The translations under genes and the position numbers were made by a program. Shown here one piece after another: positions 13,357-48,602 of a DNA stretch of 64,000 nt (position 1 is the stretch's first letter; each line of letters starts with the position of its first letter). The notes below the pieces were generated by a model that was not told the origin of the DNA, ran no database searches, and was given only the letters and a program-made list of their open reading frames with translations. Source of the DNA: Deltaproteobacteria bacterium (GTDB lineage Bacteria > Myxococcota_C > UBA6777); assembly GCA_002731275.1 (NCBI GenBank), contig PCBK01000052.1, forward strand, positions 310,001 to 374,000, in the 5' to 3' direction.

Positions 13357-13875
13357 ATGACTCGTGCGCATCCATCAGGAACCAAAACGTTGGCACCATC
13401 TCAACAAATCTTTGAACGTCTCTTTCGCAAACACTACGAGGAGATCAGACGCTATGTTGCGGGTATGTACCCCGAACATGCCGAAGACATCGTACAGGAT
13501 ACATTCATGAAGCTGCTCACAAACATCGACAACATCGAAGAACAAAGCGTACGTGCGTGGCTTTATCGTGTCGCATCCAACAAAGGCATCGACCTCACAC
13601 GCGCCAACCGCAGTCGAGAAAAGAGACATGAGCAAAGCCACACACCACAGCGCACGACACAACAAACAACCGAAGTCCAAGCCCTCGTAAGACTCGCCAT
13701 GCAGCGCCTCGCCCCCAAACAAGCGCAACTCCTTCATTTATATGGTGCAGGTCTTAGCTACGATGAGATGGCTGATGTCATGCAAGTCAAAAAGAGCAGC
13801 ATCTCACAGCTGTTGCTGCGAGCCAAACGCGCCTTCGAGCACGAGTTGGCCCTGACACAACGATCCCATACATAA
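13357..13875 (+). CDS. ECF-type RNA polymerase sigma factor (module 1)
   Basis: 172 residues with region 2 (LFRKHYEEIRRYVAGMYP, EDIVQDTFMKLL, AWLYRVASNKGIDLTR) and region 4 (MQRLAPKQAQLLHLYGAGLS, YDEMADVMQVKKSSISQLLL, RAKRAFE). Regions 1 and 3 are missing, as in ECF sigma factors. It directs polymerase to a small regulon, usually including its own operon. The downstream gene is its probable anti-sigma factor (20-base gap), followed by an exported caspase-like protein. The set is paralogous to 45615-48602. Confidence 0.9.
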   Translation: MTRAHPSGTKTLAPSQQIFERLFRKHYEEIRRYVAGMYPEHAEDIVQDTFMKLLTNIDNIEEQSVRAWLYRVASNKGIDLTRANRSREKRHEQSHTPQRTTQQTTEVQALVRLAMQRLAPKQAQLLHLYGAGLSYDEMADVMQVKKSSISQLLLRAKRAFEHELALTQRSHT

Positions 13876-13895
13876 TCTCGTAAGAGCGTATATTG

Positions 13896-14759
13896 ATGGA
13901 TACAAACATGGACAACCACACGATCGAAGACACACACCTTCAGGCTTATCTTCACGGCGAGCTTGCTCAACAAGAAGCACAGTCCCTCTCTGAGCACTTG
14001 CAAACAGACGCGGCTCTCCTCCAACGTTACCAAACACTACAGGAACAAGATCGCGTCATCATGTCCAACATCCAATTGCTTCAAGAAGTTCCAACACTCG
14101 ATCCAACTGAGGCGCTCAAAGACTTCTATCGACACACCCAAGCTCCCTCCAAGCCTTCATGGTGGGAACGATGGATGGGGGATATGCGAGCATCTTTTAT
14201 CCTCGCAACCACGGCATGTGCGGCGTTGGTGATGATGACCTACACACCCTCACAGCAGCAGGTCGCCTCGCACCCAACGCCTCCAGCTCTACGAAAAAAA
14301 GGGCTCGCCCATTCTCACACAACAGAAGAGAAGGACGTCGTCTTACAACTCGGCGCAGTCAACCACAACGCACCAAAATTGAAACGCATTGGACATGGGG
14401 ACACTTGCCGACAAGATGACGCCCTCAGCTTCGCATTCCACCTCAAAAGCCCCGGCTATCCCTATCTCTTCTTGGTCACGTCCAAAACACGTCTTCGCCT
14501 CTACCCTTTCTCGCAACAACAGGTGAAATGGTCCGCAGGAAACAAGCAGATCACACGCGCTGGCGTCGTACAACTCTACCAACTCAAACGACACCGTGGA
14601 CATGTACGTTTCGTCTTGATGAAGTCCAAAGAGCCTCTCTCCCCTTCTACCCTCTCGCGCTTCCAGCGACGTCTGTCCACACAGCAACACAGATCACGAC
14701 CCAATGTTGATGTGCTGGACATTCACGTCCAGAGCGCCCAACAGGGAGGTGGACAGTGA
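13896..14759 (+). CDS. Membrane anti-sigma-like protein without zinc ligands (module 1)
   Basis: About 287 residues. The N-terminal ~60 residues resemble an anti-sigma domain (HLQAYLHGELAQQEAQSLSE, HLQTDAALLQRY), but the C-x2-C pair of the ZAS zinc motif is replaced by non-Cys residues. One membrane helix follows at about 100-118 (FILATTACAALVMMTY). The C-terminal part (about 150-280) is outside and contains PYLFLVTSKTRLRLYPF, like DUF4384-type ligand domains. Start ATG 13896 is preferred to a TTG three bases earlier. The stop overlaps the next start as GTGA, so the caspase gene is translationally coupled. Confidence 0.75.
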   Translation: MDTNMDNHTIEDTHLQAYLHGELAQQEAQSLSEHLQTDAALLQRYQTLQEQDRVIMSNIQLLQEVPTLDPTEALKDFYRHTQAPSKPSWWERWMGDMRASFILATTACAALVMMTYTPSQQQVASHPTPPALRKKGLAHSHTTEEKDVVLQLGAVNHNAPKLKRIGHGDTCRQDDALSFAFHLKSPGYPYLFLVTSKTRLRLYPFSQQQVKWSAGNKQITRAGVVQLYQLKRHRGHVRFVLMKSKEPLSPSTLSRFQRRLSTQQHRSRPNVDVLDIHVQSAQQGGGQ

Positions 14760-16342
14760 GCGCTTCGAAATCGATCCGGTTCGGCGTCTCAATACTCGCG
14801 GTGGTGTGGTGTGTAGGCTCCCTTTTTGTGCCGACAACGAGTCACGCACAGTGGGTCTCAGCCAAACACATCAAACCCAATACACTGGGTTCAAAGAAGC
14901 TCGCGCTGTTGATCGGGATCTCCAAATTTACCAGCCCACAGTGGTCCAACATCGACTACGCGAGCAACGACGTCCACAAGATGGCACATGTCCTCAGGAA
15001 ACTCGGTAAATTCGACCGAATTATGCTGCGTACGTCGCAAAAGAACACGACAAAACAGTCGCTCTTGCAAGCCGTTAAGCGGCTTCGCGAGCATGTCAAA
15101 GTCTCCCTTGATACGGTCGTCGTGTACATCTCCTCACATGGCACCATCTCATCCCCCCCTGGTAACAAGCACAGGCTGCGGTACATCATCACCTCAGATA
15201 CGGACCAACGCATCACACAAACGGCGCTGCCTGTGCAAAAGTTGCTCAAGCTACTCAAAACCTTCCGCTCCAAGAAGGTCGTCTTGATCCTCGCCACCTG
15301 TTACACATACGCACCCAACAGCAAAGCGATCTTACACCCAGGACTCAAAGGTAACACCACCCCGACGCGTTCGTTGCGCACGCGAGCGATGCAAATCCTC
15401 AGCGCCGCAGCACGTTCTCAACCAGCCTTTGAATCGAGAACATTGCGCTCAGACGTGTACACTCACTTTTTCACAGAGTGTGCCAAAAAGCTCGCCAAGA
15501 AAGGTAAGAGGCAGATCACAGCGATCGACATACACGTGTGTGCGCTCGCACCGACAAGAGAGTTTGTCAAAAAGCACAAGGGCACCAACCAAGTTCCCGT
15601 CGTTTACTCCGAACGTGGCGCAAATTACGACATCCCTCTGATCCAATCGAAGACGACCAAACGACAGCTTGGCTACCTTCGGACAGCCTCTTTGTCCCCA
15701 GCGACCCGCTATACCATTGTCCGTCTTGGCGCAAAGAGCGCAAAACCGATCGACGCCTCAGCAGGCGAACTGCTCGCGCTGCCACCAGGGAGATACCGCA
15801 TCTCACAGGTCGACGCGCAGGGCAAAACGATATACGACAAAACCCTCAACATTCAACAAGACCAGATCGCCGAATGGAGCTCCGAATGGACCCTCGACGC
15901 ACAAGCTGGTGGCTGGTTCTCCCAAAAAGGCGGAACACAGCAATTATGGGGCGGGTATATCGGCGTTCATCACTCATTTTTTGGCTTGAAACTCGGTGTC
16001 TGGAGCACACAAAAGACTTACCTCGCCTCACCACCAAGCCAACAACTCTACCTCGAACTTCGAGGTGAAGCTGGTTTTCGCAACCAGTGGCATTCCTTTT
16101 CCTTGTTTACCGGAGCCTACGCATCCCTCGGCGTGATGTGGAAACACTTTCTCCATCCCGCACAACCGACAGGGGCCGCGAGCGTCTTCAACTACGGCGT
16201 GACCGTCACCCCCGGGCTATGGTTATCTCCAACCTGGGGCATCCATCTTCAGCTCGATGCAGGCTTCACGGTGCTTCAACTCGCAGAGCTCACAAACCAA
16301 TTTGAATGGTCCGCTCGCATCGGGTTGTACCACCGATTTTAA
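14756..16342 (+). CDS. Exported caspase-like (peptidase C14) protein with beta-rich C-terminus (module 1)
   Basis: 528 residues, GTG start preceded by GGGAGG. Signal peptide to about 31 (SLFVPTTSHA). The caspase/metacaspase fold covers about 47-290: KLALLIGISKF strand, SNDVHKMAHVLRKLG helix, catalytic His128 in VVYISSHG, catalytic Cys182 in VVLILATCYTYA. A small linking domain (about 310-370, LPPGRYRISQVD) is followed by about 150 residues of alternating hydrophobic strands ending in a terminal Phe (IGLYHRF), as in outer-membrane beta-barrels. It would lie in the periplasm or at the outer membrane. The substrate is unknown. The third gene of module 2 has the same architecture. Confidence 0.82.
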   Translation: MSASKSIRFGVSILAVVWCVGSLFVPTTSHAQWVSAKHIKPNTLGSKKLALLIGISKFTSPQWSNIDYASNDVHKMAHVLRKLGKFDRIMLRTSQKNTTKQSLLQAVKRLREHVKVSLDTVVVYISSHGTISSPPGNKHRLRYIITSDTDQRITQTALPVQKLLKLLKTFRSKKVVLILATCYTYAPNSKAILHPGLKGNTTPTRSLRTRAMQILSAAARSQPAFESRTLRSDVYTHFFTECAKKLAKKGKRQITAIDIHVCALAPTREFVKKHKGTNQVPVVYSERGANYDIPLIQSKTTKRQLGYLRTASLSPATRYTIVRLGAKSAKPIDASAGELLALPPGRYRISQVDAQGKTIYDKTLNIQQDQIAEWSSEWTLDAQAGGWFSQKGGTQQLWGGYIGVHHSFFGLKLGVWSTQKTYLASPPSQQLYLELRGEAGFRNQWHSFSLFTGAYASLGVMWKHFLHPAQPTGAASVFNYGVTVTPGLWLSPTWGIHLQLDAGFTVLQLAELTNQFEWSARIGLYHRF

Positions 16343-16405
16343 CGTTTCTGATTCTGTTCGCTTTTGACAACACAAGTATCCTTGACCAACAGGAGAACCA
16401 GGCAG

Positions 16406-18754
16406 ATGTATATCTCCAACACTCGACGTCTATCCGCCGCTCTCATGAGCGCCAGCGTCTTTTCTACTCTATTGTTTTTGTTCGCTTTTGGGTGTGGCAA
16501 AGGCCCTTATGAGCAGTGCCTCTCACAGCGAGATTGCCCAGTTGCACAAAGCTGCCTCAACAACCAGTGTGTCGCACCTCAACAAGAGAGACCCACCACA
16601 AACAACGAACCCAAACAAACACCGGATGCTGCTGCAAAGACAGAACCCACCATCCCAGAGAGAACACCAAGCGAACCGACGCTCCCAGAAGACAAGCCAA
16701 AAGAACCGACACCACAGTGTCGATCGGCACAAGATTGCGACGTCGATGAGTTGTGTGAGCAAGGCAAATGTGTCAAGCAGCCTGTACAAGCGGCCTGCGC
16801 GACGACAAAGTTCCTCGGTGCGTTGCCCCACCCATTTTCTCCAGGCTCAACACTCAAAGCAGCAGTCAGCCCCGACAGCAAAAGCTTGGCGACATTCTCC
16901 AACCAGCAATTTCACGTTTACAACATCGCGACTGGAAATACGATCTTCGTAGCACAATACGGCTCCTACAACACTGCAAACTCGGTCCGCTGGTCCCCTG
17001 ACGGCAAGTACGTGATGACCTCTCATGGTAACAATGTAAAGAATTTCGTGCTGATCTGGGATGTGCAAAACAAGAAAATGAAGTACGAGTGGAACGGATA
17101 CAACGCAGCCTTCATGAGTGACAACAAAACACTCGCGATCCAAACACAAAAAGACATCCTCTTCAGAGATCTCGCGACAGAAAAGGACATCAAGAAGGTC
17201 TCATTTACCACCCCCAACTTTTCGACCTCCGCACTCTTTCCGAGCGGAAAGTACGTGTTGCAGCACTCCGTCACCGATTTGGTCACAGTGTGGGATACAC
17301 AGACAGGAAAAAAATACAAAGAGTTCAGCATCTCAAGCAAGAACTCTTACAACACACTCACCAAGATTCTTAGCGATGACCTCGTCGTCATAGCGATTGG
17401 TGAAACCAGTGGCTTTTACACAGGGGTGGTATCCATCAGTCAGGAGAAAGTCATCCTCAAAATCGACAGACGTCAGGTCAATGCGATCGCGCTCGCTCCT
17501 AACGGACACGACTTGGTGTACGATGAAGAGACAGGTGGCACACTGATCCGACGTGATCTTCGTGATGTAAGTGTCAAAACAACATTCGATCTAAAGCTCG
17601 GGACACAGAGCAGAGTACAACGCCTCTCCTTTGCCCCTGATGGTAACCATATCATCACGTACACTTACAATTTCTCTTCAAAAACGTACTACTTACAATC
17701 GCGCAACACCACAGACTACGCTCTCGTCCAGGGAATGTACACACCAGGACAAAGTGACTTCCAGGTATCATTTAATACAGACGGGAGTGAGCTCTTGACG
17801 TTCTCTGGTGACGGATACTTTGCATATTGGGATCTGCCTGCGATTGAAAAAAGCAGCTACTTCAAGGTCAAGAGAATCGCGATGCACCCCCAAAAGGAGA
17901 GCTACAGCACCATCAACAAAGCACTTGTCAACAAATCATGGGACTTTACAGTGACACATGAGCGCTCACTCGCCACGCTCTGGGACAGCGCACAAAATCC
18001 AGTCAAGCTTCTCTCTGACACCACGACTGGTACAAAGAGCATGATGTTCTCGCCAAAAGGCGATAGAATCGTAGGGTTGTTTGGAGGCAAGGAGTTGTAT
18101 GTATGGGATACAACAGGCAAAGAGATCGCCAAGCAAACAATGTCTCCAGGCGATTCAAAGAACGATCTTATCGGCATCGATGGTGACACAGGAAAAGTGA
18201 TTACATCGCTGTACGACGGTCCAGGTCACACATTGGAGTTTCGGGATCCAGAGACGTTGATGGTGGTACACAAACACTCGACACCTTACGCAGCGTGGTC
18301 TTTTGCAACATCCGAAAAGGGTGGCTGGGTTGCGTTGGTCACACGTGAAAAAACCCTCCTCATTTTCGACGCTCGCACTGGAAAAGTCGTCCACACCTTC
18401 TCCACAACATTTGGCAATGGACGCGCGACATTCTCTCCATCAGGAAAATATGTCGCGCTTACCATCGCGAGCAAGGCGCTTATTTTCAACCTCAAAACAG
18501 GCCAAGCAGGTCCCTTGCTCGAAGGCAGCACACAAGCGCTCGCGTTCAGTCCAGACGACACACATGTCGCAATTGCTGCTGCAGGTGGAGATGTCACGTT
18601 GTGGAACATCCAAACAGGGAAACAGGTCTCCACGTTGGTCAACAAAGGCGGAAGCAGCACGGTCAAAGACATCAAGTTCGGACCCAAAGGACACTTCCTC
18701 ACATACTCTCTCCGCTCATCAGGAACAGCCCAACTGTGGTCTTGTGTAAAATAA
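16406..18754 (+). CDS. Lipoprotein with Cys modules and WD40-like beta-propeller
   Basis: 782 residues from ATG 16406. AGGAG lies 10 bases upstream; this start gives a lipoprotein signal ending LLFLFAFGC. The mature N-terminus has C-x5-C-x5-C-x4-C (CLSQRDCPVAQSCLNNQC), a Pro/Glu/Thr linker, then a second copy (CRSAQDCDVDELCEQGKC). The remaining ~640 residues are WD40/YVTN-like repeats (AVSPDSKSLATFS, VRWSPDGKYVMTS, LSFAPDGNHIITY, MFSPKGDRIVGL, ATFSPSGKYVALT, AFSPDDTHVAIA), enough for two propellers. It is a surface or periplasmic lipoprotein, probably a binding scaffold. It lies 63 bases downstream of module 1 and may be co-transcribed. A C/T-rich tract follows the stop. Confidence 0.85.
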   Translation: MYISNTRRLSAALMSASVFSTLLFLFAFGCGKGPYEQCLSQRDCPVAQSCLNNQCVAPQQERPTTNNEPKQTPDAAAKTEPTIPERTPSEPTLPEDKPKEPTPQCRSAQDCDVDELCEQGKCVKQPVQAACATTKFLGALPHPFSPGSTLKAAVSPDSKSLATFSNQQFHVYNIATGNTIFVAQYGSYNTANSVRWSPDGKYVMTSHGNNVKNFVLIWDVQNKKMKYEWNGYNAAFMSDNKTLAIQTQKDILFRDLATEKDIKKVSFTTPNFSTSALFPSGKYVLQHSVTDLVTVWDTQTGKKYKEFSISSKNSYNTLTKILSDDLVVIAIGETSGFYTGVVSISQEKVILKIDRRQVNAIALAPNGHDLVYDEETGGTLIRRDLRDVSVKTTFDLKLGTQSRVQRLSFAPDGNHIITYTYNFSSKTYYLQSRNTTDYALVQGMYTPGQSDFQVSFNTDGSELLTFSGDGYFAYWDLPAIEKSSYFKVKRIAMHPQKESYSTINKALVNKSWDFTVTHERSLATLWDSAQNPVKLLSDTTTGTKSMMFSPKGDRIVGLFGGKELYVWDTTGKEIAKQTMSPGDSKNDLIGIDGDTGKVITSLYDGPGHTLEFRDPETLMVVHKHSTPYAAWSFATSEKGGWVALVTREKTLLIFDARTGKVVHTFSTTFGNGRATFSPSGKYVALTIASKALIFNLKTGQAGPLLEGSTQALAFSPDDTHVAIAAAGGDVTLWNIQTGKQVSTLVNKGGSSTVKDIKFGPKGHFLTYSLRSSGTAQLWSCVK

Positions 18755-19097
18755 ACGCTCCTCCTCCCTCTTGTCCCCCAACCACTTCCCCTCCCTCCTT
18801 CTCAATATACTCGGCTTTTTGAGACCAAATGAACAAGCGTCAGGTCCAATGTGAGATGCGCACACATAAAAAGCATCTGTCACGTTTTGCTCATTTTGCG
18901 TCAAAGACTACCGTGACACGCTGAGCTGAGACACGTGAAGAGCATAAAATCGTCTTGTGTGATGGGAGATAGGAGATCATAAACCTTGACAAGGCTTATG
19001 GAGATAAGAGACAATCCCAAACTTATACAGGATGGTGCTAAATCATTCATAAAACAAGAATATTTGTTTCACAATTGTAACATTTTGTGTCCCCTCT

Positions 19098-19119
19098 AGC
19101 AGATTGAACACAATCTGCT
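19098..19119 (+). promoter_or_regulatory. Perfect 9-bp hairpin in leader of the IPT lipoprotein gene
   Basis: AGCAGATTG / CAATCTGCT with an AACA loop, followed by shorter nested stems of GAGAA/TTCTC and a T6 run (about 19145-19150). It could be an attenuator-like structure or a terminator. The gene begins 76 bases further on. Confidence 0.45.
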
Positions 19120-19182
19120 TGAGAAGGTTTCTCTCAGAGAAAACTTTTTTCATCATTGTTGGGTTTCGCACTCTTTTCTACT

Positions 19183-19189
19183 AAGGAGG
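19183..19189 (+). promoter_or_regulatory. Ribosome binding site fixing GTG start at 19195
   Basis: AAGGAGG five bases before GTG 19195. This start produces a normal lipoprotein signal; an in-frame TTG 39 bases upstream has no ribosome site. Confidence 0.8.
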
Positions 19190-19194
19190 CTATT

Positions 19195-22100
19195 GTGTTT
19201 CGTGTACGTACATTCAAAACTTACGCTGTGTTTTTGGGCATCCTCGCCTTGCTCGCAGCAGGCTGCAGCGACCCACCAGCGGTCGAAGACTATTGCGAAA
19301 AGCAAGCAGACTGTCCCACAGGACAACGTTGTATCAAAAACAAATGTACAACACCTGTCATCCAACTTGAGGCTCCTTACGCAGATCCCGGTAGCAAACA
19401 AAAAGTCCGCCAAAACACCAAAGTTGAGCTTGACGGTTCAAAATCAAGCGATCCAGAGGGGGGCAACCTGACATTTGCCTGGAGTTTCGTCTCCAAACCC
19501 GACGCTAGCAAAGCAGACTTTGACGATGCTACGGCTGAAAAGCCAACCTTCTTTGCGGACGCTGAGGGCAAATTTGTCGTGCAGCTGATCGTCAAGAGCG
19601 ACAAGTCGGAAAAAGAGAGTGAGCCCCAAGAGGTCATCATCACAGTCACAGGTAAGGACCTCAACTCCGCTCCCATCACGAACGCCGGCGCCGATCTTGT
19701 GACAGGCGTCAACAAGACCATCAAAATCGACGGTTCGAGCTCCACCGACCCTGACGGAGATCCCATCACATACAAATGGACCCTCGCCTCCAAGCCTTCA
19801 GGAAGTCAAGCAGAGCTCACAGATGCCGAGACAGCGACCCCCTCACTGACCCCCGACGTCGCAGGAAAATACATCGTCGAGTTGGTTGTCAGTGATGGTC
19901 TGGAAGACGGAAATGTCGACAGCGTTACAATTACAGCGCTGACAGACTTTGACCTCGTCCCCCAACTCGACAGCATGACCCCCACAGAGGCCTTCTCCGA
20001 AGCGGCTCCCAAAGTGGTGCTGAAAGGCTCTGGTTTTTCAGCGAATGCTCTCGTCCTTTTCCGAGGACGCTCAATCCAAAGCAAAGACGTCAACATCAAA
20101 GACGACAAAGAGATCGAGATCACGCTCAACTTGCAAGGGATCTCTGCAGGCGTCCACAAAATGAAGGTGCGCAACCCCAACGGAAAAGAGAGCGCGGAGC
20201 TTGACTTCACCGTCAAAGACATCCCCATCCCCAAAATCGACAGCCTGTCTCCTCCCGCAGCAGGGATCGGAGTCAAGCTGACACTCAAGGTCACAGGGAC
20301 TGGCTTTGTCCCGACCTCTGAGGTGCTCTTCCAAGGTACTGCGCTCCAGACGACCTTCGTTAAAGACACGGAAATCACCGCAGAGCTAGACCTGAGCCAA
20401 ACACCTGACGGCACCTACACAGTCGCAGTCCGTAACCCCGGAAACAGAACCTCCCCCACAGTGGACTTCAAGGTGCTCCCTCCAGGACTGCCACCTGTAC
20501 TCAATGTCCTCAACCCACCATACAGCATCTTAGGAAAACAGCTCGCATTCAGTGTCCACGGGACGGGTTTCGCTCCAGGCGCTGTGATCATCTTTGATGG
20601 CAAACCGCTCAACTCCAACCGCGTCCGCCGCGACGAGATCCAGGCAGTCCCTCACCTCGACCTCACTGGTGTCAAAGAAGGTGAGTACGATGTCTGGGTA
20701 CGTAACCCTGACGGAACCACCTCTGGAAAAGAAAAGTTCCGCGTAGAAGGTGTCGATCCCACACCACAGATCGATCGCATCCTGCCCTTCCAGGTCTACC
20801 TCGATGACTCCACAAATGTGATCTCTGTCTATGGTAAGAACTTCCGCGCCGATCCTGTTTTCTACATCGGCACAAACAAGATCCCCACCTCCGCGATCCG
20901 CGTGAGAAGCTCCACATACATCGAAGTCAAAGTGGACACGACAAAAGGAACCTGGACGTCAGGCAAATTCTCATCCTACGTCGAGAGCAAAAGTGGAAAG
21001 AAATCCAACAAGTTCGATCTCACAGTCACATACCGTATTCCCTCACTCTCCTACATGAGCCCTGGCGGGTGGACCAACGGCTGCGACACAGACGTCGATG
21101 TCTACGGAAGCAACTTTGTTCCCAAAGCCAAGCTCAACTTTGGCAGCACGGAATACAGCGCAGCGAGCACAACACACAAGCTCACGTACATCGACGACAC
21201 ACACATGCGCTTTAAGTTGAAGGCCACTTCACTCAGCGCGACGACCCACCAAGTCAATGTTGTCAACGGCCCCAACGCTAAATCAGGCAACGTGAGCTTT
21301 GTCATTCGCGCGAGCACAAGCATCCCCAAACCACAAATCAGAGAAGTACGACCAGCCTCGGCACAAGCCGACACTTCCCTTGTTTTTACTCTCAACTACA
21401 ACAGCCCTGGTTACTTCTTGCAGGGCGCTTATATCGTGTTCAACGGCAAAAAGTTGGGGACGACATGTAGCAGCTCCACCAGCACGTATTGCTCAGGCAT
21501 GACTGCCAAGCTCGACCTCGCAGGTATCAAACCAGGCAAATACGAACTGTACGTCCACAACCCATGTGGCACCAAGAGCGATCCCTGGCCCTTTATCGTC
21601 ACCGATCCTCCCAAACCCCACATCAGCAAGGTATCTCCTGCATACGCCAACCCAGGTGATAAAAAACTCATCGGTATCGCCGGTGTGAACTTCACCAAGG
21701 GGGCGAAGATCTTGTGGGACGGAAAGGCCATCGCGACGACCTACTCCTCCGACAAGGAACTCTTCACAGCCAACACGATCGACTTCACCAACGACAAAGC
21801 AGGTGACAAACACACCATCCAGGTCGATAACGGGAATGGTCAAAAGACGGCTGTTGTAACCTTCTCAGTATTGGACAAACAACACGCCCCCATCATCGAC
21901 AACTTGTCCTTGACTGCGTTCGATCGAGGAAAATCCTATAACGGCGTCAATGTGACAGGTTCAGGCTTTACAGCGAACACCAAAGTTCATTTCAACGGAA
22001 AAGCCATCACCACGATCTTCAACTCCTCGATCTCGCTGACCATCAGCGGTCTCGACTTCACGAATCTCCCAGCAGGGACGTACTTTGTGGTCGCCAAAGA

Positions 22101-24444: not shown

Positions 24445-24494
24445 TTCCTCCTCCTCCTTCTCCATCCATCCCCCTTCAAATCTTTCCCCCAAAA
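24445..24494 (+). terminator. Possible Rho-dependent termination tract
   Basis: Fifty bases without a single G directly after the stop codon at 24444, made mostly of C and T. No hairpin terminator is nearby. A role as Rho loading site is inferred from composition only. Confidence 0.35.
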
Positions 24495-24628
24495 GACGCC
24501 CTCCACAAAGCAGGGTGCCCTTGCCTCCGTATGACTTCAGTGTTATAAGAGAAGCACTTTCTGAGAACTTGATTTCTTTGAAGAATCCAAGATGATGCAC
24601 TTATCTCACTCTGAGCAAAGGAGGGCTC

Positions 24629-25516: not shown

Positions 25517-25546
25517 TCCCCTCCTCTCTTCTCCCTCCCCCACTTT
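25517..25546 (+). terminator. Possible Rho-dependent termination tract
   Basis: Thirty G-free bases of C and T directly after the stop of the OmpA-like gene. Inferred role only. Confidence 0.3.
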
Positions 25547-25590
25547 GCATTTCAAAAATTGAAACGTCTTACAAAAACGGCCTGTTTCGC

Positions 25591-38439: not shown

Positions 38440-38744
38440 AAGCAATTGTCTCTCTATCAGGCCAGTCCAAGAAAAAAGTGTACGAAAAAAAGGAACTGCG
38501 TTGTGCCCTATACCAGAATCCATCACAAAAACAAAGACACCTTCATCACCTTGCAAAAAAGAGATACGCGTTCTACTTTTGAACCACAACATCCACAGAG
38601 GACACGCTCTTTGCACTCCCCTTGCCTTTGTACGTCTTGGAGCGTATGGAGCCTCTGTGGTAAAGTAGGTTCTGCCTTTGTCTGAGTGTGTGACGAGGGT
38701 GGATAAATTCAAGATTGAAGAAACAAAGCTGACAGCTTTGATGG
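38440..38744. other. Divergent interval between proB and the TPR-like gene
   Basis: No gene. It holds the cruciform-forming repeat at 38593-38660. No consensus promoter is clear on either strand. Confidence 0.5.
38593..38660. promoter_or_regulatory. 68-bp two-stem inverted repeat in the proBA upstream region
   Basis: Outer arms CCACAGAGG / CCTCTGTGG (38593-38601 with 38652-38660) are perfect. Inner arms ACGCTC / GAGCGT (38604-38609 with 38640-38645) are also perfect. Read from either strand it gives a stable RNA structure; it could also be an operator pair. Role unknown. Confidence 0.5.
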
Positions 38745-39614
38745 ATGTGTAAGGTGTTACGATTTCGATATATATGTATGTGTTTGTGTTTGAGTTGTAT
38801 GGTTGTATCAGATGCACAAGCAGACCAAGCTGAGCGTCTTTATTTCAAGGCGATGAAGTTGTTTCGTAGCAAACAATGGGATGCCTCACAAAAAGCCTTC
38901 AAGCGGACTCTCGTGCTGCTTAGCAAGCGCGCTCCCAAGGGAAAGAAACAGCGGGTACTGCTCCAACTCGGAAGATGTGATCTGCTCTATCACCTCGCCT
39001 TGCTCGCACAAAAACAGGCCCGCCCTCAAGCTCGCTGCCTTCATTTGCAAGACCTCATCGGGCGCCTTCAGGGGCTCCCGAAGGGGTGGCGAAGATGGCG
39101 CGTCAATCGACTCCTTCCCAAACGTTTTGCCCACGCGAAGACGCTCTTCTCACGTTGCGGAAAAGTCCCCACTCCACTTCACTTCGCACTCTCCCCAAAA
39201 GAGACAAAGCTCGAATGGTTAACGAACACAACACCTCCTTCTTGGACCCCATTACAAGGGACACATCTGAAGACGACACAGCGCAGTCTCAAGATCAGAT
39301 TGACGGCCAAAGGGTACATCCCCCAAACACACACGCTCACCCTCCAAGCATGGAAAACACAACGCTTCTCCTACACCCTCAAGCCTAAGCCGACGCCAGC
39401 CCGTCGTACGCCTGTCATCGTCGCGATCAAACCCCCAACGGACAGACCCCCTCAAAAGGCGAAGAAAAAATCATCCCTGCTGGCCTCCCCGTGGCTGTGG
39501 GTCGGGATCGGGGGTTCTGCTGTGCTCGTTGCGGGGATCGTCGTAACAGCTGTTGCCCTACAACCAAAAGACGAGATGGTCCTCGTGATCGAGCCATCCA
39601 AACGCAACCCTTGA
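38745..39614 (+). CDS. TPR/PEGA-like envelope protein with C-terminal membrane helix
   Basis: 289 residues. Signal peptide of about 26 (CMCLCLSCMVVSDAQA), then a TPR-like helical section (AERLYFKAMKLFRSKQWDAS, QKAFKRTL). A PEGA-like section follows (about 150-215, SLKIRLTAKGYIPQTHTL), then a Pro/Lys linker and a membrane helix near the end (SPWLWVGIGGSAVLVAGIVV). This order is frequent in Myxococcota envelope proteins of unknown function. The next gene starts nine bases after the stop, so the two are probably one operon. Confidence 0.75.
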   Translation: MCKVLRFRYICMCLCLSCMVVSDAQADQAERLYFKAMKLFRSKQWDASQKAFKRTLVLLSKRAPKGKKQRVLLQLGRCDLLYHLALLAQKQARPQARCLHLQDLIGRLQGLPKGWRRWRVNRLLPKRFAHAKTLFSRCGKVPTPLHFALSPKETKLEWLTNTTPPSWTPLQGTHLKTTQRSLKIRLTAKGYIPQTHTLTLQAWKTQRFSYTLKPKPTPARRTPVIVAIKPPTDRPPQKAKKKSSLLASPWLWVGIGGSAVLVAGIVVTAVALQPKDEMVLVIEPSKRNP

Positions 39615-39622
39615 GGTCCACG

Positions 39623-42600: not shown

Positions 42601-43999
42601 CAAAGCCGCAACGCAGACATGCAACAAAGGCACCTGGAGCACGTGCAAAGATACCAAACCCACACTCGAACGATGTCACCTCGACGCCTCCAAGCAGCCC
42701 ATTGATGACGACTGCGATGGCCACATCGATGAAGTCTGTTACACCGCAACGGTTTATAAAGACAAAGAAAATGACATGTTCGATATCGCCGTCCACCCCA
42801 CAGGCAATTACTTCCCAATGATCGCTTATGACGGTCGTATGAACTACGCAGACAAAACCAAAAACTTCGGCTACAGGTTCAGCCATACGTTTAACAGGGT
42901 ACCTGGTTTGGATATCAGCCCAACCAAAATCCCAGTTCAAAAGAAGGTTGGCAGCCACAACATCACAACCCCTCAGTATCTGTTTGTTACATCAGAACAA
43001 GAAAAGCGTCTCCTTCGAAAAGATCGTATTCAGCTGCGTTTTTACCTCGCGAGCAGCTCAATCTTTACAGGCAGTACCGTTGAAACCTACAGCTTCACAA
43101 ACGCTAGCGTCCCTGCGGATGTGAAGTTTGCCAAGGATCGACTGTTCGTCCTCGTGCGCGATCAAAAGAAGCTCTACCAAGTTCGCTTTGGCACCTTTGG
43201 GAAAGACAAATTGAGCAACACTTCGATCTCCCTCAGTACGGGAACCGTCAGTTGCCAGCCACTGCGTCTTGCTGTTCATGAAGGCAAAAAGTTGATCGCT
43301 GTGAGCTGCAACCCGCTCGCGATATACGGCTCACGCGACGTCTTTGAGCGGCGTCCAATCCCTACACCTGGAAACGTACGTAAAGCCAGTCAACACGATC
43401 GCATTATGCTGCTCAGTTACAAAAACAACACCCTCAAAGTCCTCCACAGTGTCCCCCTCAGCTTACCCAACCAAACAGTCAATGCGCCTCTTGACCTGAC
43501 CTTCACGGACGCGGTCGATCCAACAACCAACACCAAAAAGACCTATCTACTGGTGACACACCTTGGTAAAGACGACTCCACTCGTATTGAGCCAGGGATC
43601 ACCTTCCTTGAGCTGGATGGCAACAACGTCCCCAAAATCCTCAAGACCATCCCCTCAAGACTCAGCAACTCGACTTCCCTTGTTCGACCTATCGGTGTTC
43701 GCGTCACACCAGGCGCAGATCCCCTTGTACTCGTCTCCTCACAAACGTACGCTCCTAACGGACTACAACTCCAAAACGGCATTGTTGTGACATTTTACCT
43801 CTCGGAGCTGCTTCAAGGAAACAGTGCGTCTGCTCTACAGAGCTTTCCATACAACAAGCCAGCAAACTTCCTCGAACAGAGTCCAACAGGACATATCTTC
43901 GCTGTCCCATTTGTCGAGCCAGGAAAACTCTTCAGCACAACAAATATTACGGTCTTCCAGCGCACAAGAAAAACGTCGGTGCTTCCAGTGACTCCGTAA
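39623..43999 (+). CDS. Large lipoprotein with Kelch repeats and seven MopE-type acidic repeats
   Basis: 1458 residues from ATG 39623, giving a lipoprotein signal ending LLLTVVSC. Residues about 130-590 contain Kelch-like repeats (LRLQDGRVLILGG, ERADGSVWLIGG, TQLPDGRFVVIGG, TLLHDGRLLISGG, LRNHSLLLLGG), a beta-propeller. Residues about 615-1040 hold seven C-(D/N)-G-x-D-(D/N)-x-C-D-G-x-x-D units (CNGKDDDCDGLIDN, CDGKDNDCDGQIDN and others), resembling the metal-binding motif of MopE. They are separated by Cys-rich spacers with GxW (GTWGPC, GKWGAC). The last ~400 residues resemble another beta-rich domain. It is a surface lipoprotein, with Ca or Cu binding possible by family resemblance. Confidence 0.85.
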   Translation: MSKLTPRITILLVLLLTVVSCGAPQFRMQLYYPPDEPELETTIQSFSVHVGGEGIKEDKHGSFSDRNTPFRLEQLKCSETQKAQEWAFTITGLKDSVPYAMGKQYLEGVCQQQAGLKVFVSRTDAFSTLGLPTADGTSKAASLPKGLIGHQTLRLQDGRVLILGGLQISRSFESPLNTSSLFGLRQFPKDSQLSKGTWIYDPASGTLEAGPTLRIPRAFFTATERADGSVWLIGGITQTDDNALDIVKDTELLTPVQGHITAQSPSTKGPPLQAGRAFHTLTPIRSSQGQQTTYVVYGGLSSTEPLLAPHLESFEYNSKETNAEWTVTELPQAHQRLLHTANYLPLTGQADEAPQGYLVITGGIGPFNDGQGIRYKTHGSVLRLTRQNGEWIVPEATEALSKERAGHTVTQLPDGRFVVIGGFVGKIAADLGDALRPEKTQASLEWLSNRARTKYTFTNESGDTKQELTLPAAVLHTTTLLHDGRLLISGGVQADEKGINTNKTGFVLTPNARGIRLSEKRPPLKYPRHFHTTVQLRNHSLLLLGGIQTQTDGQLTHQPQQTIESYYPATAPDAGIDKWKSCYSGDAKTRHIGECRDGTSGTEGEQCLNEIVPTPEECNGKDDDCDGLIDNADKCKCDQGVQQLCGKSEGECLQGTQQCVNGTWGPCEGERKPSPELCDGKDNDCDGQIDNGMQGLPLQQECYPQSTGCTKVEGDTTTYKCEGVCRAGTQSCTAGKWGACNNPILPKDEVCDGADNDCDGKSDNNADGTLLTKSCYTGQDANTKGVGTCKAGTQTCTNGEWQGVCVGEVTPNTQEACDGKDDNCDGQIDETCQCKPGKTQKCFTGPSSQCSGGMCQGLCKYGEQLCDTDGNWGKCKDAVVGTTETCDGEDNDCDGQVDNAIPKVGTDCTIKKFNGMTIQGACTKGSFVCIQGNLECEPGTPKEETCNNEDDDCDGQIDNQKSTQDALVRPCISADNAGCKPDGKGGYTCTGACKAATQTCNKGTWSTCKDTKPTLERCHLDASKQPIDDDCDGHIDEVCYTATVYKDKENDMFDIAVHPTGNYFPMIAYDGRMNYADKTKNFGYRFSHTFNRVPGLDISPTKIPVQKKVGSHNITTPQYLFVTSEQEKRLLRKDRIQLRFYLASSSIFTGSTVETYSFTNASVPADVKFAKDRLFVLVRDQKKLYQVRFGTFGKDKLSNTSISLSTGTVSCQPLRLAVHEGKKLIAVSCNPLAIYGSRDVFERRPIPTPGNVRKASQHDRIMLLSYKNNTLKVLHSVPLSLPNQTVNAPLDLTFTDAVDPTTNTKKTYLLVTHLGKDDSTRIEPGITFLELDGNNVPKILKTIPSRLSNSTSLVRPIGVRVTPGADPLVLVSSQTYAPNGLQLQNGIVVTFYLSELLQGNSASALQSFPYNKPANFLEQSPTGHIFAVPFVEPGKLFSTTNITVFQRTRKTSVLPVTP

Positions 44000-44023
44000 A
44001 TGTAAAGTTTTTTGAGAAGAGAC

Positions 44024-45436
44024 TCAATCGAGCAGACATCGATCGATGTGTTGGAGAAGAGACGTTTGTCGAAGGGTTTCGCGGGTAGAGGAGGAGAGAC
44101 CGTTCATACGCAGATCGAGACGACGCAGCTTTGGGAGGGGTTCAAATGCTCGAAGACGCATGGCACCTTCATCACCGAGTTGATTGCCCATCAAATCCAG
44201 AGAGCGTAAACGCGCACCAAGCGAAGAAGACAACAGCGCCATCACCCCATCAGCGCTCAGTCGGTTGTGTGCGAGTCCCAAGACCTCGACCTTGCGCAAA
44301 AATGGAGACTGAATCAGTGAAAGAAGACCCCTGTCATCCAGATCATTATTGGGTAGCCACAACACACGTACCCCTTGCAGCCAAGGAGACTGCGCGAGCG
44401 CTTGTAGACCGTGGTTGCTGAGCTGTGTGCTCCCAAGGCGAAGTTCTTGTAGACCGACGAGGTGGGACGCTTGCGATAACGCGACCGCCCCCTTCTCTGA
44501 GAGCGGATTTGAACATAAAGAGAGCTTCTCTAACTTCGTCAGATGGGCAGATTGCGCGATCGCCTCGGCACCTGCTGCGCTGATCCTCGATGCATGCAAA
44601 TCCAACGAACGCAGCGCCCTCAAGTGCGGAGAGTTCGCGATCGTCACTGCGCCTTGTGTCCCAATAAAGGTTTGACTGAGATTGAGATGTGTGAGCTTTG
44701 AGAGATGGGGAGCATGTGCGAGCACACTCGCGGAGAGCCGTCCAACGGCGTTTGCCCCGAGATTCAGGTGGGTCAAATTGGCGATCCGAGGTGAACCAAG
44801 TAGCCCACGAATCCCAACATCTCCGATATCGTTGTTGTACAGGTACAAATGGGTCAGCCGCGTCATCATGGGATGGCGCAGTAACTCTTGGAGCCCAGCT
44901 GTCCCGATGCGATTGGCAGGAGCAGAGTGGTGGCTGTTGAGATTGAGATAGCGCAACTCAGGCAGATCAACTGCATAGACAGAGGAGAGATAGCGAGGCC
45001 CATCACGTGTGAGTAAATTATCGCTCAGATCGAGATAGTGAAGTTGTGACAGGTCTGTATATTGGATAAGCGCGTTGAGCTCCGCGTCTGTCACATGGCA
45101 TCCACCCAAGTCGAGCATTTTGACAAACGGCCAGAGCGGATGTAGAGGCTCTTCACCGAGTAAGGCATCTTTCCAAGAGGGCACGGAACGACATAGAATC
45201 GCAGGCCAATGAGACAAGTGTTCTCTAGCATAAGAGAGCGCAAGATCAAGTCCAGCCCCCCTCGTCCAGCTTGCAAACAAATCACACAGACGCGCCCAAT
45301 TTTCCTCATTAGGCGTGTAGAGTAGATTGCGAAGTGATTGCCAATCCTCACATCCAACCATCCCATCTGTCCTTTCATCGAGATCCAGCCGCTCCTTGGC
45401 CGAATACTTTTGAAACATTGTCTTGTTTGCCATCAT
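44024..45436 (-). CDS. Leucine-rich-repeat protein, ribonuclease-inhibitor type
   Basis: About 470 residues, no signal peptide, so probably cytoplasmic. The N-terminal ~95 residues are helical and unrecognised (NEENWARLCDLFASWTRGAG). From about 115 to the end run roughly eleven LRRs of 26-29 residues with the RI-type pattern (LSQLHYLDLSDNLLTRDG, LTHLYLYNNDIGDVGIRG, LTHLNLGANAVGRL, LEKLSLCSNPLSEKGA, LRSLDLMGNQLGDEGA). It is probably a protein-binding scaffold. Start choice is uncertain: ATG 45436, the adjacent ATG, or ATG 45418; none has a strong ribosome site. It is divergent from module 2, whose sigma gene begins 179 bases away. Confidence 0.8.
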   Translation of the reverse strand: MMANKTMFQKYSAKERLDLDERTDGMVGCEDWQSLRNLLYTPNEENWARLCDLFASWTRGAGLDLALSYAREHLSHWPAILCRSVPSWKDALLGEEPLHPLWPFVKMLDLGGCHVTDAELNALIQYTDLSQLHYLDLSDNLLTRDGPRYLSSVYAVDLPELRYLNLNSHHSAPANRIGTAGLQELLRHPMMTRLTHLYLYNNDIGDVGIRGLLGSPRIANLTHLNLGANAVGRLSASVLAHAPHLSKLTHLNLSQTFIGTQGAVTIANSPHLRALRSLDLHASRISAAGAEAIAQSAHLTKLEKLSLCSNPLSEKGAVALSQASHLVGLQELRLGSTQLSNHGLQALAQSPWLQGVRVLWLPNNDLDDRGLLSLIQSPFLRKVEVLGLAHNRLSADGVMALLSSSLGARLRSLDLMGNQLGDEGAMRLRAFEPLPKLRRLDLRMNGLSSSTRETLRQTSLLQHIDRCLLD

Positions 45437-45517
45437 AGCACACGAACGCGAAGACAGCGAGTTGTCCAAGAGTGAGAAAGAGAAACCCACCGTATATCGG
45501 GAAAAATGCCCCCCCAC

Positions 45518-45544
45518 GACAAAAAAGATGCGATTTTTTTTGTC
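45518..45544. repeat. AT-rich 9-bp inverted repeat between the LRR gene and module 2
   Basis: GACAAAAAA / TTTTTTGTC around a 9-base loop (45518-45526 with 45536-45544). The right arm overlaps the shared TTTTGTCACA box. Confidence 0.45.
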
Positions 45545-45547
45545 ACA
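45538..45547 (+). promoter_or_regulatory. Box shared with sigma module 1
   Basis: TTTTGTCACA about 68 bases before the sigma gene of module 2, identical to the box before module 1. Candidate ECF promoter element or operator; the bases further downstream do not align well between the two. Confidence 0.3.
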
Positions 45548-45614
45548 AATGGTTTTGTGATGGTGTTTTCATCGCACAAAGACTGGCTGTGACAGCGCGA
45601 CAGAGGAAGAGCAC

Positions 45615-46154
45615 GTGACGCAGAAACAAGAAGACGCATTCAAGGAGGCATTCATGCGGTACTATGGTCAAATTCATAGACACCTGCATCGCCTTTTAGG
45701 GAACAAAGAAGAAGCTGACGATGTCGCTCAGCTCGTCTTTATGCGCTTTCATGAGCACTTTGCAGAAGTTGAGCCAGACAAGGCCAAAGCGTGGTTGTAC
45801 AAAACGGCGACGCGACACGGGCTCAATACGCTGCGAGGGAAAAAGCGATTTCGACGATGGCAAGAGAAAGCCAAACATCAACCGATGACCCCTCAAGACG
45901 AACAACGCCCACCAGAAGAGCTCCTGCTCGAACAAGATGAAAGAGCGCATGTGCGTGCGACACTGAGTAAGCTAGCGCCCCGTGATGCTCGCATTCTCTC
46001 GCTGTTTTTCTCCGGTCTCAAGAGTTACAAAGAGATCGCTGAAGAGATCGATGTCCAACCAGGCTCAGTAGGGACACTGCTCGCACGCGCCAAACGCGCA
46101 TTCAAAAAAGAGTACGCCTCATCGCCTCATACACCCGCAAGGAGGAACCCGTGA
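45615..46154 (+). CDS. ECF-type RNA polymerase sigma factor (module 2)
   Basis: 179 residues, GTG start preceded by GAGGAAGAG. Region 2 is seen in AFMRYYGQIHRHLHRLLGNK, ADDVAQLVFMRFHEHF, and AWLYKTATRHGLNTLRGK. Region 4 is seen in LSKLAPRDARILSLFFSGLK, SYKEIAEEIDVQPGSVGTLL, and ARAKRAFKKE. Gene order sigma, anti-sigma, caspase repeats that of module 1. The stop codon overlaps the anti-sigma GTG start as GTGA, so these two are coupled. Confidence 0.92.
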   Translation: MTQKQEDAFKEAFMRYYGQIHRHLHRLLGNKEEADDVAQLVFMRFHEHFAEVEPDKAKAWLYKTATRHGLNTLRGKKRFRRWQEKAKHQPMTPQDEQRPPEELLLEQDERAHVRATLSKLAPRDARILSLFFSGLKSYKEIAEEIDVQPGSVGTLLARAKRAFKKEYASSPHTPARRNP

Positions 46155-47011
46155 GTTGTGACGAAGGCCGCATCCAGGCTTACCTCGATGACTCCCTTCC
46201 AGAGCACGAGCTCACCGAGCTTGAAGAACACCTGGAACATTGTCCACAATGCCAGGACACGCTGCAATCGTTGTGCGCATTACAGGAAGATGTGTCTCTT
46301 GCCCTCTCTTCCGTGTTGTATCCGATGGATGCAGAACCCATCGAGACAGAGCACGAGCACTGGACGAGCTTCGCGCAAACGCTGCCCTCCCCCACACAGG
46401 AAACCACCTGGACGCAGTGGTTCTCCCTCTGGTTTTCGGGCAGACAACCATACATCTTTGTGGCCGGCTTTGCCTGCTTGCTCATTGTAGGGTTGTATCT
46501 TCCAGCGCTCATCCAGCCGACGACACAACCTCACAACAATTGGAAAGGTGAGCACGACATCGAATTGTTCCACATGTGCCGCTCCCCACAAGGGATCCTT
46601 CGGCGATGTCCGACAGAGCAAGGAGCGAGCTTACCTCCTCGCGCGCTGATCCAATTTACCTACCACGCGAGAGTCGGAAAAACCCCTCTTCAGACAATGA
46701 TCTTAAGCATCAACGCACGCGGTGAGATCGCCCCCTACGTTCCCTTCAATCAACCACACAGTCTCGCCCTCACACAGGCAAAGGGGACACTCCCTGTTGG
46801 CCAATCGCTCGAATTGGATGATTACTTGGGAAAAGAGCTGATCGTCGCTATCATAGCGAAGAAACCCTTTCAGCTCTCGCAAGCCAAAGAGATACTCGCA
46901 AAGGCATATCAACAACACGCTCATTCTCTCCAAAGGATGGCGATAGAGAAGAAAGGATGGTCTATCCAAACATGGTTGATCGAAAAGCGACCGACCTCAT
47001 TTAAGCCGTAG
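46151..47011 (+). CDS. ZAS-type membrane anti-sigma factor (module 2)
   Basis: 286 residues, GTG start with AAGGAGG five bases upstream. N-terminal zinc-binding anti-sigma motif: C3 and the H-x3-C-x2-C set in EEHLEHCPQC (about 25-34). These residues are known to hold zinc in ZAS anti-sigma factors that bind and release ECF sigma factors. One membrane helix at about 101-119 (IFVAGFACLLIVGLYLPALI). The outer part (about 150-280) begins with a short Cys-containing stretch (MCRSPQGILRRC), then beta-rich sequence like that in the module 1 partner. The caspase gene begins ten bases after its stop. Confidence 0.9.
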   Translation: MSCDEGRIQAYLDDSLPEHELTELEEHLEHCPQCQDTLQSLCALQEDVSLALSSVLYPMDAEPIETEHEHWTSFAQTLPSPTQETTWTQWFSLWFSGRQPYIFVAGFACLLIVGLYLPALIQPTTQPHNNWKGEHDIELFHMCRSPQGILRRCPTEQGASLPPRALIQFTYHARVGKTPLQTMILSINARGEIAPYVPFNQPHSLALTQAKGTLPVGQSLELDDYLGKELIVAIIAKKPFQLSQAKEILAKAYQQHAHSLQRMAIEKKGWSIQTWLIEKRPTSFKP

Positions 47012-47021
47012 GAGGGAAAGT

Positions 47022-48602
47022 ATGTGGCGACTGTTTCTGTTCTGTGTGCTGTGTGGAGCGTCGACCTCGGCGTGGGCGGGAGAGGCACGACTCGCGCTGT
47101 TGGTCGCACATGAACAGGGATGGACTGGCGAGCCACGGCTCAAGTACGCGATCCAGGGTGATCTATTGCCCATGGCCCAAACGATGAGGAGGCTGGGCTT
47201 TAGGGTCCAGGTCGTGCAAAATCCCTCCGCAGCCTATCTGCGTGAGGTGCTCAAACAAGTCGTCAAATACACACGTCGTCGCAAGATCTCGACCTTCGTG
47301 TTCTATTACTCAGGGCATGCAGGCAGGTTCTCTTTCCACCTCGGCAAGCGCAAAAAACGCCCTCTGCAATACCAGGAGTTTTTGCAGTACTTCCAAAAAA
47401 TACAGAGCAGGCGGCGGGTCGCGATCTTTGACTCCTGTTACAGTGGAGAGATCATCCGACAATTTGGTAGCCTTCAGCGCTACAGAAAACTCCTTCAAAA
47501 CGGTCAACTCAAAGGAGTACGTGCGCGCAGAGCGTTTGATTTGAGCAATCTCAAGCTCCCCAAGAAAGGCGATGAGCGAGGCATACGGATCATCTCCTCC
47601 AGTCTCGGTGTCGCCTGGGAAGTCCATCGCTACAAAGCCTCCGTCTTTACCTACCACTTCCTCAAAGGTCTTAAAGGTGCGGCTGATCTTGACCGTGACG
47701 GCAAAATCACAGTTGATGAGCTGTTCGATTATGCCAGCCGCAGTGTCCAACAAGAGACAGGGCAGCGTCCCGAACAGCTCATCTTGATGAGGCGAAACAC
47801 ACCTTACGCTTTCGCCCCAGCGTACAACAGTCGTTTGCGTATCGGCTCCCAAATCATCGGCCACCTCAGAATCTCCGTGTCCAACTTTGTGTGGTCTCAG
47901 CACAAAAGCCAACGCGCGCCTCTCAAGCTCGCGATCGTCGCAGGCAAAGGACAGGTCGAGCTTAAACACAAACAGCGCTGCTACAGACAGCAGATCAGCA
48001 TCCCCAATCGCAGCGAGATCACCCTGCGCAATCGCTGGATCGCGATCTCATGTCATCGATGGTCAGGCAAAAAGAAGGGACTGATCGAGCTGCCCACACA
48101 ACTTCGCAGAGAGGTCCCCTTCAAAGCATCGTTCTCCATCGGCGCCGCCGGCTCTCTTCTCAGCTCCGCGCTCGCAGGAACAGAGCGGCTCGGTGGTGGT
48201 TCTTTTGTCTTTCACGTGATGCCAAAAGAGAGCCTCTTGTTGTTTGGTGCGAGGCTCGGATTTTGGGGGACCTCCAAGGTCTTTTCACAACAAACACTCC
48301 AACAGTTCTACACAGAGCTGCGATTGGAAGGTGGTCTTCACCTCAAGTATCTGCCGTTATCCTTGATGTTGGGGGGATATGTTTCGGGAGGATTGCTGTT
48401 TCAGGATATCAACGCAGAGGCGTCGCGAACAGGGACGATGATGCGATACGGAGGGACACTTCAGCTCTCTTTGTGGTTCCACTCGACAATACTACTTCGA
48501 GCGAGCGTCGATGGTGGCGCCTCCCTCTCACGCCGCTCACAAGCTTGGAAGCACTTGCCCGATTGGACGATGCGACTAGGATTTGCCTATCACTTTCAGT
48601 GA
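47022..48602 (+). CDS. Exported caspase-like (peptidase C14) protein with beta-rich C-terminus (module 2)
   Basis: 526 residues; AGGAGGG precedes ATG 47022. Signal peptide to about 19 (CGASTSAWA). Caspase fold about 21-250: LALLVAHEQGW, catalytic His99 in FVFYYSGHAG, catalytic Cys139 in VAIFDSCYSGE. After it comes DLDRDGKITVDELFDYA, an EF-hand-like loop that may bind calcium (some metacaspases are calcium-activated). The last ~170 residues are alternating strands ending LGFAYHFQ, resembling an outer-membrane barrel. The protein is about the same length as its module 1 counterpart but diverged. Location in the outer membrane is inferred. Confidence 0.85.
   Translation: MWRLFLFCVLCGASTSAWAGEARLALLVAHEQGWTGEPRLKYAIQGDLLPMAQTMRRLGFRVQVVQNPSAAYLREVLKQVVKYTRRRKISTFVFYYSGHAGRFSFHLGKRKKRPLQYQEFLQYFQKIQSRRRVAIFDSCYSGEIIRQFGSLQRYRKLLQNGQLKGVRARRAFDLSNLKLPKKGDERGIRIISSSLGVAWEVHRYKASVFTYHFLKGLKGAADLDRDGKITVDELFDYASRSVQQETGQRPEQLILMRRNTPYAFAPAYNSRLRIGSQIIGHLRISVSNFVWSQHKSQRAPLKLAIVAGKGQVELKHKQRCYRQQISIPNRSEITLRNRWIAISCHRWSGKKKGLIELPTQLRREVPFKASFSIGAAGSLLSSALAGTERLGGGSFVFHVMPKESLLLFGARLGFWGTSKVFSQQTLQQFYTELRLEGGLHLKYLPLSLMLGGYVSGGLLFQDINAEASRTGTMMRYGGTLQLSLWFHSTILLRASVDGGASLSRRSQAWKHLPDWTMRLGFAYHFQ

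Follow-up and report, generated by a model that had tools for sequence, protein, structure and literature searches.

Sigma, anti-sigma and caspase modules of a deltaproteobacterium: exported caspases as candidate site-1 proteases of their own anti-sigma factors

What does an exported caspase do in an operon with a sigma factor and a membrane anti-sigma factor? The question arises from a 64,000-nucleotide stretch of a deltaproteobacterial genome (GCA_002731275.1, contig PCBK01000052.1, positions 310,001 to 374,000; hereafter the window), in which an earlier note had recognized two sets of three genes in the order extracytoplasmic function (ECF) sigma factor, one-pass anti-sigma factor and exported caspase-like protein. 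According to the reading that we favour, and consider fairly probable, the caspase is a barrel-tethered, dedicated site-1 protease that would mature itself and cut its own anti-sigma factor at a Lys-Gly bond, thereby freeing the sigma factor.

The modules in the window and beyond

We located the six open reading frames (ORFs) of the two sets, modules A and B, where the earlier note had placed them, and the gene order was as it had described. In module A, the ECF sigma gene (13357-13875, forward strand, as for all features of both modules; 172 amino acids) matched Pfam Sigma70_r2 (2.9e-12) and r4_2 (1.3e-8) as well as TIGR02937 (3.7e-23). The membrane anti-sigma gene (13893-14759; 288 amino acids) follows after a 17-base gap, and the caspase gene (14756-16342; 528 amino acids) overlaps it by 4 bases. 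A scan for transmembrane (TM) segments and linkers placed the TM segment of this anti-sigma factor at residues 100-118; its listed start codon is TTG, with ATG codons within a few codons after it. In module B, the genes for the ECF sigma factor (45615-46154; 179 amino acids; Sigma70_r2 1.7e-12, r4_2 9.4e-9) and the anti-sigma factor (46151-47011; 286 amino acids; TM residues 102-120) overlap by 4 bases, and a 10-base gap precedes the caspase gene (47022-48602; 526 amino acids). These close junctions, to which the note had already pointed, support an operon structure. Both sigma factors are short, comprise regions 2 and 4 only and matched Sigma70_r2, r4_2 and TIGR02937 over cut-off, which identifies them as ECF factors. 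Peptidase_C14 (PF00656) matched both third genes above its curated cut-off (A, 5.1e-15; B, 8.3e-14). The N-terminus of the anti-sigma factor matched the zinc-finger model zf-HC2 over the cut-off in B (1.7e-7) and below it in A (0.006). Dedicated ECF/anti-sigma control and export of the third-gene product, as the note had read them, are supported. The two modules are homologous: the C-terminal domains of the caspases are 29% identical over 143 amino acids (E 1e-13) and the sigma factors 33% over 163 columns.

The earlier description of a twice-repeated module, or pair, was too low a count. The source genome (10.75 Mb in 200 contigs, ~95% complete, 5.5% contamination) holds ~20 such modules. It contains 21 Peptidase_C14 matches and, when all ORFs were considered, 19 exported caspases paired with a module-type anti-sigma factor, one of them (L031) divergently arranged; a recognizable ECF sigma factor is also present at 16 of these 19 loci. 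One further module lies on contig C23. At L027, L033 and L036, the modules closest to caspase A, the gene upstream encodes a protein remotely like a sigma factor (to the ECF profile, hhalign probability 91 and E 1.2e-6) with an altered region-4 part (L027:8270-9061, reverse strand; L033:5024-5596, forward; L036:8435-9001, reverse). These three proteins may represent a divergent group of sigma factors that is new. In four further genomes from the source genome's family, 8-21 caspase matches per genome were found.

The three-gene order, for which the note had proposed a search in related genomes, was found and recurs in Spirochaetota, Fibrobacterota, Myxococcota and Reinekea. A caspase-only query of 84,980 species genomes gave matches in Treponema and other spirochaetes, Fibrobacteres, Myxococcota, metagenome-assembled genomes of Acidobacteria, and Reinekea, including the cultured Reinekea sp. 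G2M2-21 (locus L089). The query was a four-sequence alignment, so the distant set leans towards caspase-B-like members. At 69 distant loci, 12 of them near a contig start, an anti-sigma gene directly upstream of the caspase gene was found in 49, and sigma plus anti-sigma genes in 46, with an anti-sigma search profile made from the source genome's own copies; the sigma gene lay downstream instead at 10 more. The typical overlap between module genes is 4 bases. At seven loci (L086, L088, L099, L106, L124, L132 and L135) the layout is an alternative one, in which the caspase gene is followed by at least one intervening gene, then the sigma and anti-sigma genes.

A Lys-Gly motif in the anti-sigma linker and the caspase loop

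The 18 anti-sigma paralogs have one TM segment and, in 7 cases, an N-terminal zf-HC2 zinc finger. DUF4384 (PF14326) matched 14 of the 18 at E<1 (best 5e-12). Since neither window anti-sigma factor matched the Pfam model alone, their DUF4384-like label is based on the paralog alignment (for module A, with 17 paralogs). All nine DUF4384 hits of the source genome are at caspase modules (9/9). In cyanobacteria, DUF4384 is fused to orthocaspases in 23 of 473 cases (PMC8283722); this points to a direct connection of one domain with the other.

The linker between the TM segment and the DUF4384-like domain carries Lys-Gly (KG), typically 10-25 residues past the membrane, in 67 of 78 anti-sigma factors; composition-preserving shuffles of the linkers gave 21.8±3.9 (maximum 39). 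The longer form RxKG was present in 42 of the 78, as against 1.7±1.3 after shuffling and 1/78 in each of three control regions of the same proteins. The KG enrichment survived clustering at 30% identity (24/31), and in the full anti-sigma alignment the columns of the linker K and G both rank within the top three for conservation. Outside the modules, membrane zf-HC2 anti-sigma factors of the same and related genomes had a linker KG in 1 of 13, module members having been removed from this set by hand. In the window, the predicted cleavage sites are K136-G137 of module A (14298-14303, by residue count) and K132-G133 of module B (46544-46549, from the linker scan), both in the juxtamembrane linker.

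The same dipeptide occurs in the caspase. Almost all members have K-G, most often as RxKG(G), in the loop that follows the catalytic Cys, where self-cleavage usually takes place. This is a predicted self-cleavage site, K198-G199 in caspase A (15347-15352; invariant columns in family alignment A6) and K164-G165 in caspase B (47511-47516; at least 90% conserved in alignment A5). Its position is comparable to that of Lys225 in the plant metacaspase AtMC4, in which the first self-cut is at this residue, in the linker after the Cys, and in which Lys225 sits between the catalytic residues of the resting enzyme (PMC7206013).

To compare the two sites we used 99 caspase/anti-sigma pairs. At P1 and P1', the caspase loop had K in 96 and G in 98, and the anti-sigma linker K in 88 and G in 92. 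Three caspases lack the loop P1 Lys: L035a (R), L158 (R) and L037 (M). All three partner anti-sigma factors carry the same P1 swap (RTR↓GG, ITR↓GS and RWM↓GG, respectively; permutation P 2e-4, uncorrected for relatedness). Further, at the position two before the catalytic His, L037 alone of the 99 caspases has Ala instead of Ser/Thr; in AtMC4, the Ser at this position bonds the side chain of the P1 Lys (PMC7206013). Distance matrices of 16 modules of one genome were correlated between anti-sigma factor and caspase (r=0.66, P<=0.0005) weakly between sigma and anti-sigma factor (r 0.26, P 0.015) and not significantly between sigma factor and caspase. This pattern fits anti-sigma factor and caspase as the closest partners.

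These data bear on the suggestion that the linker KG is a structural feature, or one that serves another protease, and that it resembles the caspase loop by coincidence or through a general bias of basic linkers. The linkers are indeed short and basic, and there are few R/R and M/M cases. That suggestion nevertheless leaves the motif's absence at such levels from shuffled linkers, control regions and non-module anti-sigma factors to be accounted for, together with the conservation of its K and G and the matching of all three replacements. We regard it as very improbable.

Caspase, barrel and the proposed switch

The catalytic residues named in the earlier note proved correct. His128 (15137-15139) and Cys182 (15299-15301) of caspase A and His99 (47316-47318) and Cys139 (47436-47438) of caspase B are invariant columns in alignments A5/A6, and the His-Cys dyad is intact in 99 of 99 paired caspases. 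At the S1-pocket positions that would underlie a preference for basic P1 residues, Ser/Thr is found two before the His in 98/99 and Asp two before the Cys in 86/99. The remaining 13 (window copy A plus 12 relatives) carry Ala instead of this Asp, so their S1 pocket is altered; KG is kept in nearly all.

The note had expected a caspase fold and a barrel of 8-12 strands, and AlphaFold2 models of both proteins contained a caspase fold and an 8-stranded, OmpX-type barrel. In each model, an N-terminal helix (signal peptide) is followed by the caspase fold, a small beta domain and eight antiparallel strands that run to the C-terminus, within residues 379-527 in A (15890-16336) and 369-525 in B (48126-48596). 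The mean predicted local distance difference test (pLDDT) score was 78.6 for B and 71.2 for A, the barrel strands of B being mostly >90. The predicted template modelling scores (0.54 and 0.48, respectively) are low and therefore do not fix the relative placement of the domains. Residues 19-267 of caspase B matched caspase-7 (VIA Z 23.1), and Foldseek matched caspase A to caspase-9 and caspase-6 (E ~1e-5), the barrel of B to NspA, Ail, OmpX and OmpA (E ~1e-7 to 1e-6) and that of A to OprF/OmpX/Ail (A and B together, E 1e-7 to 1e-4). A PDB sequence search with the full-length caspases found no relative; the relatives came from the fold search.

Caspase B ends in ...RLGFAYHFQ, which resembles the beta-signal of outer-membrane proteins (OMPs). 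Such C-termini were found in 13 of 19 paralogs (1.2 after shuffling) and in 27 of 50 distant members (2.5 after shuffling). Both models thus combine eight antiparallel strands with an OMP C-terminal signature, as in OmpA/OmpX-type barrels, and insertion in the membrane is predicted. With a C-terminal barrel of only eight strands, the caspase domain should be periplasmic. Autotransporter-type surface display was rejected as the main reading, since both models have 8 strands and the type Va translocator 12. Neither caspase had a Pfam match to the Plug or STN domains of TonB-dependent signalling receptors.

In the switch that we propose, the sigma factor would be held at the inner membrane by the one-pass anti-sigma factor, whose periplasmic part would consist of the short linker and the DUF4384-like domain. 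The exported orthocaspase would be anchored in the outer membrane by its barrel, and its caspase domain would lie in the periplasm opposite the anti-sigma factor. Candidates for the trigger are the barrel, the DUF4384-like domain or Ca2+. Once triggered, the caspase would mature by cutting itself at (R)xK↓G, within the loop that follows the catalytic Cys, and then cut the matching (R)xK↓G of the juxtamembrane linker, the site-1 cut. Loss of the anti-sigma factor and release of the sigma factor would follow, and, the caspase gene being in the same operon, feedback may ensue. Gene order, domains, fold, barrel, dyad, matching motifs and covariation are features of the sequences or models; outer-membrane and periplasmic location, cleavage, the order of events, release of the sigma factor and feedback are what the proposal adds. 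A precedent for a caspase-family protease that frees an ECF sigma factor is provided by Csx29/Csx30 (PMC10028731). A possible Ca2+ site is the EF-hand-like loop of caspase B (DLDRDGKITVDEL; 47679-47732), whose EF-hand_5 match (E 0.0018) is below the curated cut-off.

The motif and its covariation would also fit an arrangement in which the linker KG occupies the active site of the caspase and serves to inhibit or tether it, so that the uncut anti-sigma factor controls the caspase and a signal releases both. Lys225 of AtMC4 blocks the active site until it is cut, as this arrangement would have it; the same Lys is, however, also the first cleavage site (PMC7206013), and the invariant dyad argues for catalysis. 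Inhibition with and without cleavage would look alike in sequence. We consider this arrangement rather unlikely.

The earlier note had suggested an envelope-damage response in which the caspase cleaves surface proteins. Envelope damage is a possible signal. As to the substrate, the sequences favour a nearer one, the linker of the co-encoded anti-sigma factor, and hence a caspase that more likely belongs to the signalling switch. A related possibility is that the outer-membrane caspase is induced by the sigma factor and acts on other proteins of the periplasm or surface, such as exported downstream products, while other proteases inactivate the anti-sigma factor. Most modules of the source genome precede another same-strand gene, often large, and several of these encode lipoproteins or other exported proteins of differing kinds. 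The gene for a 796-amino-acid WD40-like exported protein (16364-18754) begins 21 bases past caspase A, and in a cyanobacterium an orthocaspase cleaves an antitoxin whose gene lies beside its own (PMC7935541). By contrast, the gene downstream of module B is on the opposite strand, the downstream genes vary by copy while the sigma/anti-sigma part is constant across phyla, and the matched KG motif and its covariation are left unexplained. This possibility appears unlikely, if less so than inhibition by an uncut linker. As to a role as toxin or cell-death effector, evidence neither for nor against was found, immunity-like genes not having been systematically sought.

A number of observations weigh against site-1 cleavage by the caspase. 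Neither the Fisher nor the permutation values take relatedness into account; common descent may lie behind the two R/R cases, and there is just one Met case. K-S replaces K-G in anti-sigma factors L038, L150, L151 and L154 (and, by eye, L025), and L026 has Q-G. Linker MG accompanies caspase KG in the near-identical L127/L140/L143, and linker RG accompanies it in L171, L177 and L172. Sigma and caspase distances were not significantly correlated (r=0.12, 16 modules). Anti-sigma activity is assigned by position and TM segment, plus the zinc finger in only 7/18, and the origin of the anti-sigma search profile in the source genome also counts here. Finally, there are the 13/99 caspases with Ala two before the Cys, and L031, L034 and L036 of the source genome have no recognizable barrel. 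The C-termini in which a barrel is unclear (L034, L031, L036 and L033) contain hydrophobic helices in three cases, and L033 has a long GLQIAGL..-like repeat region.

Related systems and neighbouring features

The earlier note knew of no such system. Operons of metacaspases with sigma-70 factors had in fact been reported in 2012 from Myxococcus xanthus, Anaeromyxobacter, Haliangium, Sorangium, Ralstonia and Fibrobacter (Asplund-Samuelsson et al. 2012, PMC3501461); for M. xanthus DK1622, four sigma-metacaspase operons are on record. On the basis of the operon section of that paper, these are very likely the same system as the present modules: a caspase-domain gene and a sigma-70 family factor share an operon, and the lineages overlap (Myxococcota, Fibrobacteres). 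That section deals with sigma factors only and mentions neither an anti-sigma factor, a DUF4384-like domain, a caspase barrel, a cleavage motif nor a mechanism (PMC3501461). No description of the module's features beyond the sigma-caspase link was found in the literature searched, which was mostly outside subscription journals. The DUF4384-like periplasmic part of the anti-sigma factor and the near-universal linker (R)xKG that matches the caspase loop appear to be new.

The modules share with Csx29/Csx30/CASP-sigma of type III-E CRISPR systems a caspase-superfamily protease that, there, cuts the inhibitor of an ECF-type sigma factor encoded nearby (PMC10028731). Csx29, however, is a cytoplasmic TPR-CHAT protein activated by target RNA on Cas7-11, and the sigma inhibitor there does not belong to the DUF4384 membrane type (PMC10028731). 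Pfam found Peptidase_C14 and no TPR/CHAT in the window caspases, Cas7-11 not having been searched for. In the present modules, by contrast, an exported caspase has an outer-membrane barrel fused to it and the anti-sigma factor spans the inner membrane. In RseA/DegS/RpoE and other ECF systems controlled by regulated intramembrane proteolysis, a periplasmic protease cuts a membrane anti-sigma factor near the membrane, as proposed here. DegS, a trypsin-like protease with a PDZ domain, resides in the inner membrane, whereas our candidate site-1 protease would be an outer-membrane-anchored caspase encoded in every module. The FecA/FecR/FecI type of cell-surface signalling also unites an outer-membrane barrel, a one-pass inner-membrane anti-sigma factor and an ECF sigma factor at one locus; here, by contrast, no TonB plug or signalling domain was seen, the barrel has 8 strands and is not a large TonB-dependent one, and the periplasmic part is a protease. 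A caspase or CHAT protease also stands beside an ECF sigma factor in EACC2-caspase neighbourhoods with DUF1822 (PMC8195603) and in ECF54-CHAT (PMC8999054); as far as those accounts go, these systems have effector-associated/TRADD-N domains or no anti-sigma factor, and no outer-membrane barrel is described.

Taken together, the modules probably represent a three-gene switch, found in several phyla and in up to ~20 copies per genome, in which an outer-membrane caspase cuts its own anti-sigma factor and so turns on genes. Whether they amount to a cross-phylum form of surface signalling, with outer-membrane orthocaspases as site-1 proteases of their own anti-sigma factors and ~20 circuits per cell kept orthogonal partly by co-evolution of S1 pocket, self-site and substrate site, we judge to be evenly balanced. 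The role of bacterial caspase homologues has been unsettled for two decades, and the discussion usually turns on programmed cell death. For a large class of exported caspases, the module points to a specific, testable candidate substrate, one dipeptide of the co-encoded anti-sigma factor. If the proposal is correct, a caspase placed at the outer membrane joins the proteases that start ECF signalling, and bacterial caspases are tied to gene regulation across the envelope, not to death. The ~20 copies in one genome would also offer a naturally occurring series of parallel protease-substrate pairs on which to study specificity.

Some further features were noted. The sequence TTTTGTCACA is present exactly twice in the window (13304-13313 and 45538-45547), ~45-80 bases 5' of each sigma gene. 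A common ECF promoter was rejected on the data for TGTCAC, which was not enriched over the paralogs (4/16, 1.0 expected; the top 6-mer in shuffles reaches 7), and the shared sequence is kept as a lead. In the Treponema locus L111 (6139-10831), the caspase gene is followed, according to Pfam, by genes for a TonB-dependent receptor, ExbB, two ExbD and TonB, and L122, L126 and L139 are similar. The TonB/ExbB/ExbD genes suggest a link to energized outer-membrane transport. A 9.0-Mb genome outside the source genome's family (G032) encodes six related caspases (L183-L188), some in the same module. Within the window, a gene for a leucine-rich-repeat protein (497 amino acids; 44024-45517, reverse strand) is divergent to module B, and a Ser/Thr kinase-like protein with one TM segment and a long Arg/Lys-rich C-terminal tail is encoded at 11070-12521 (reverse strand).

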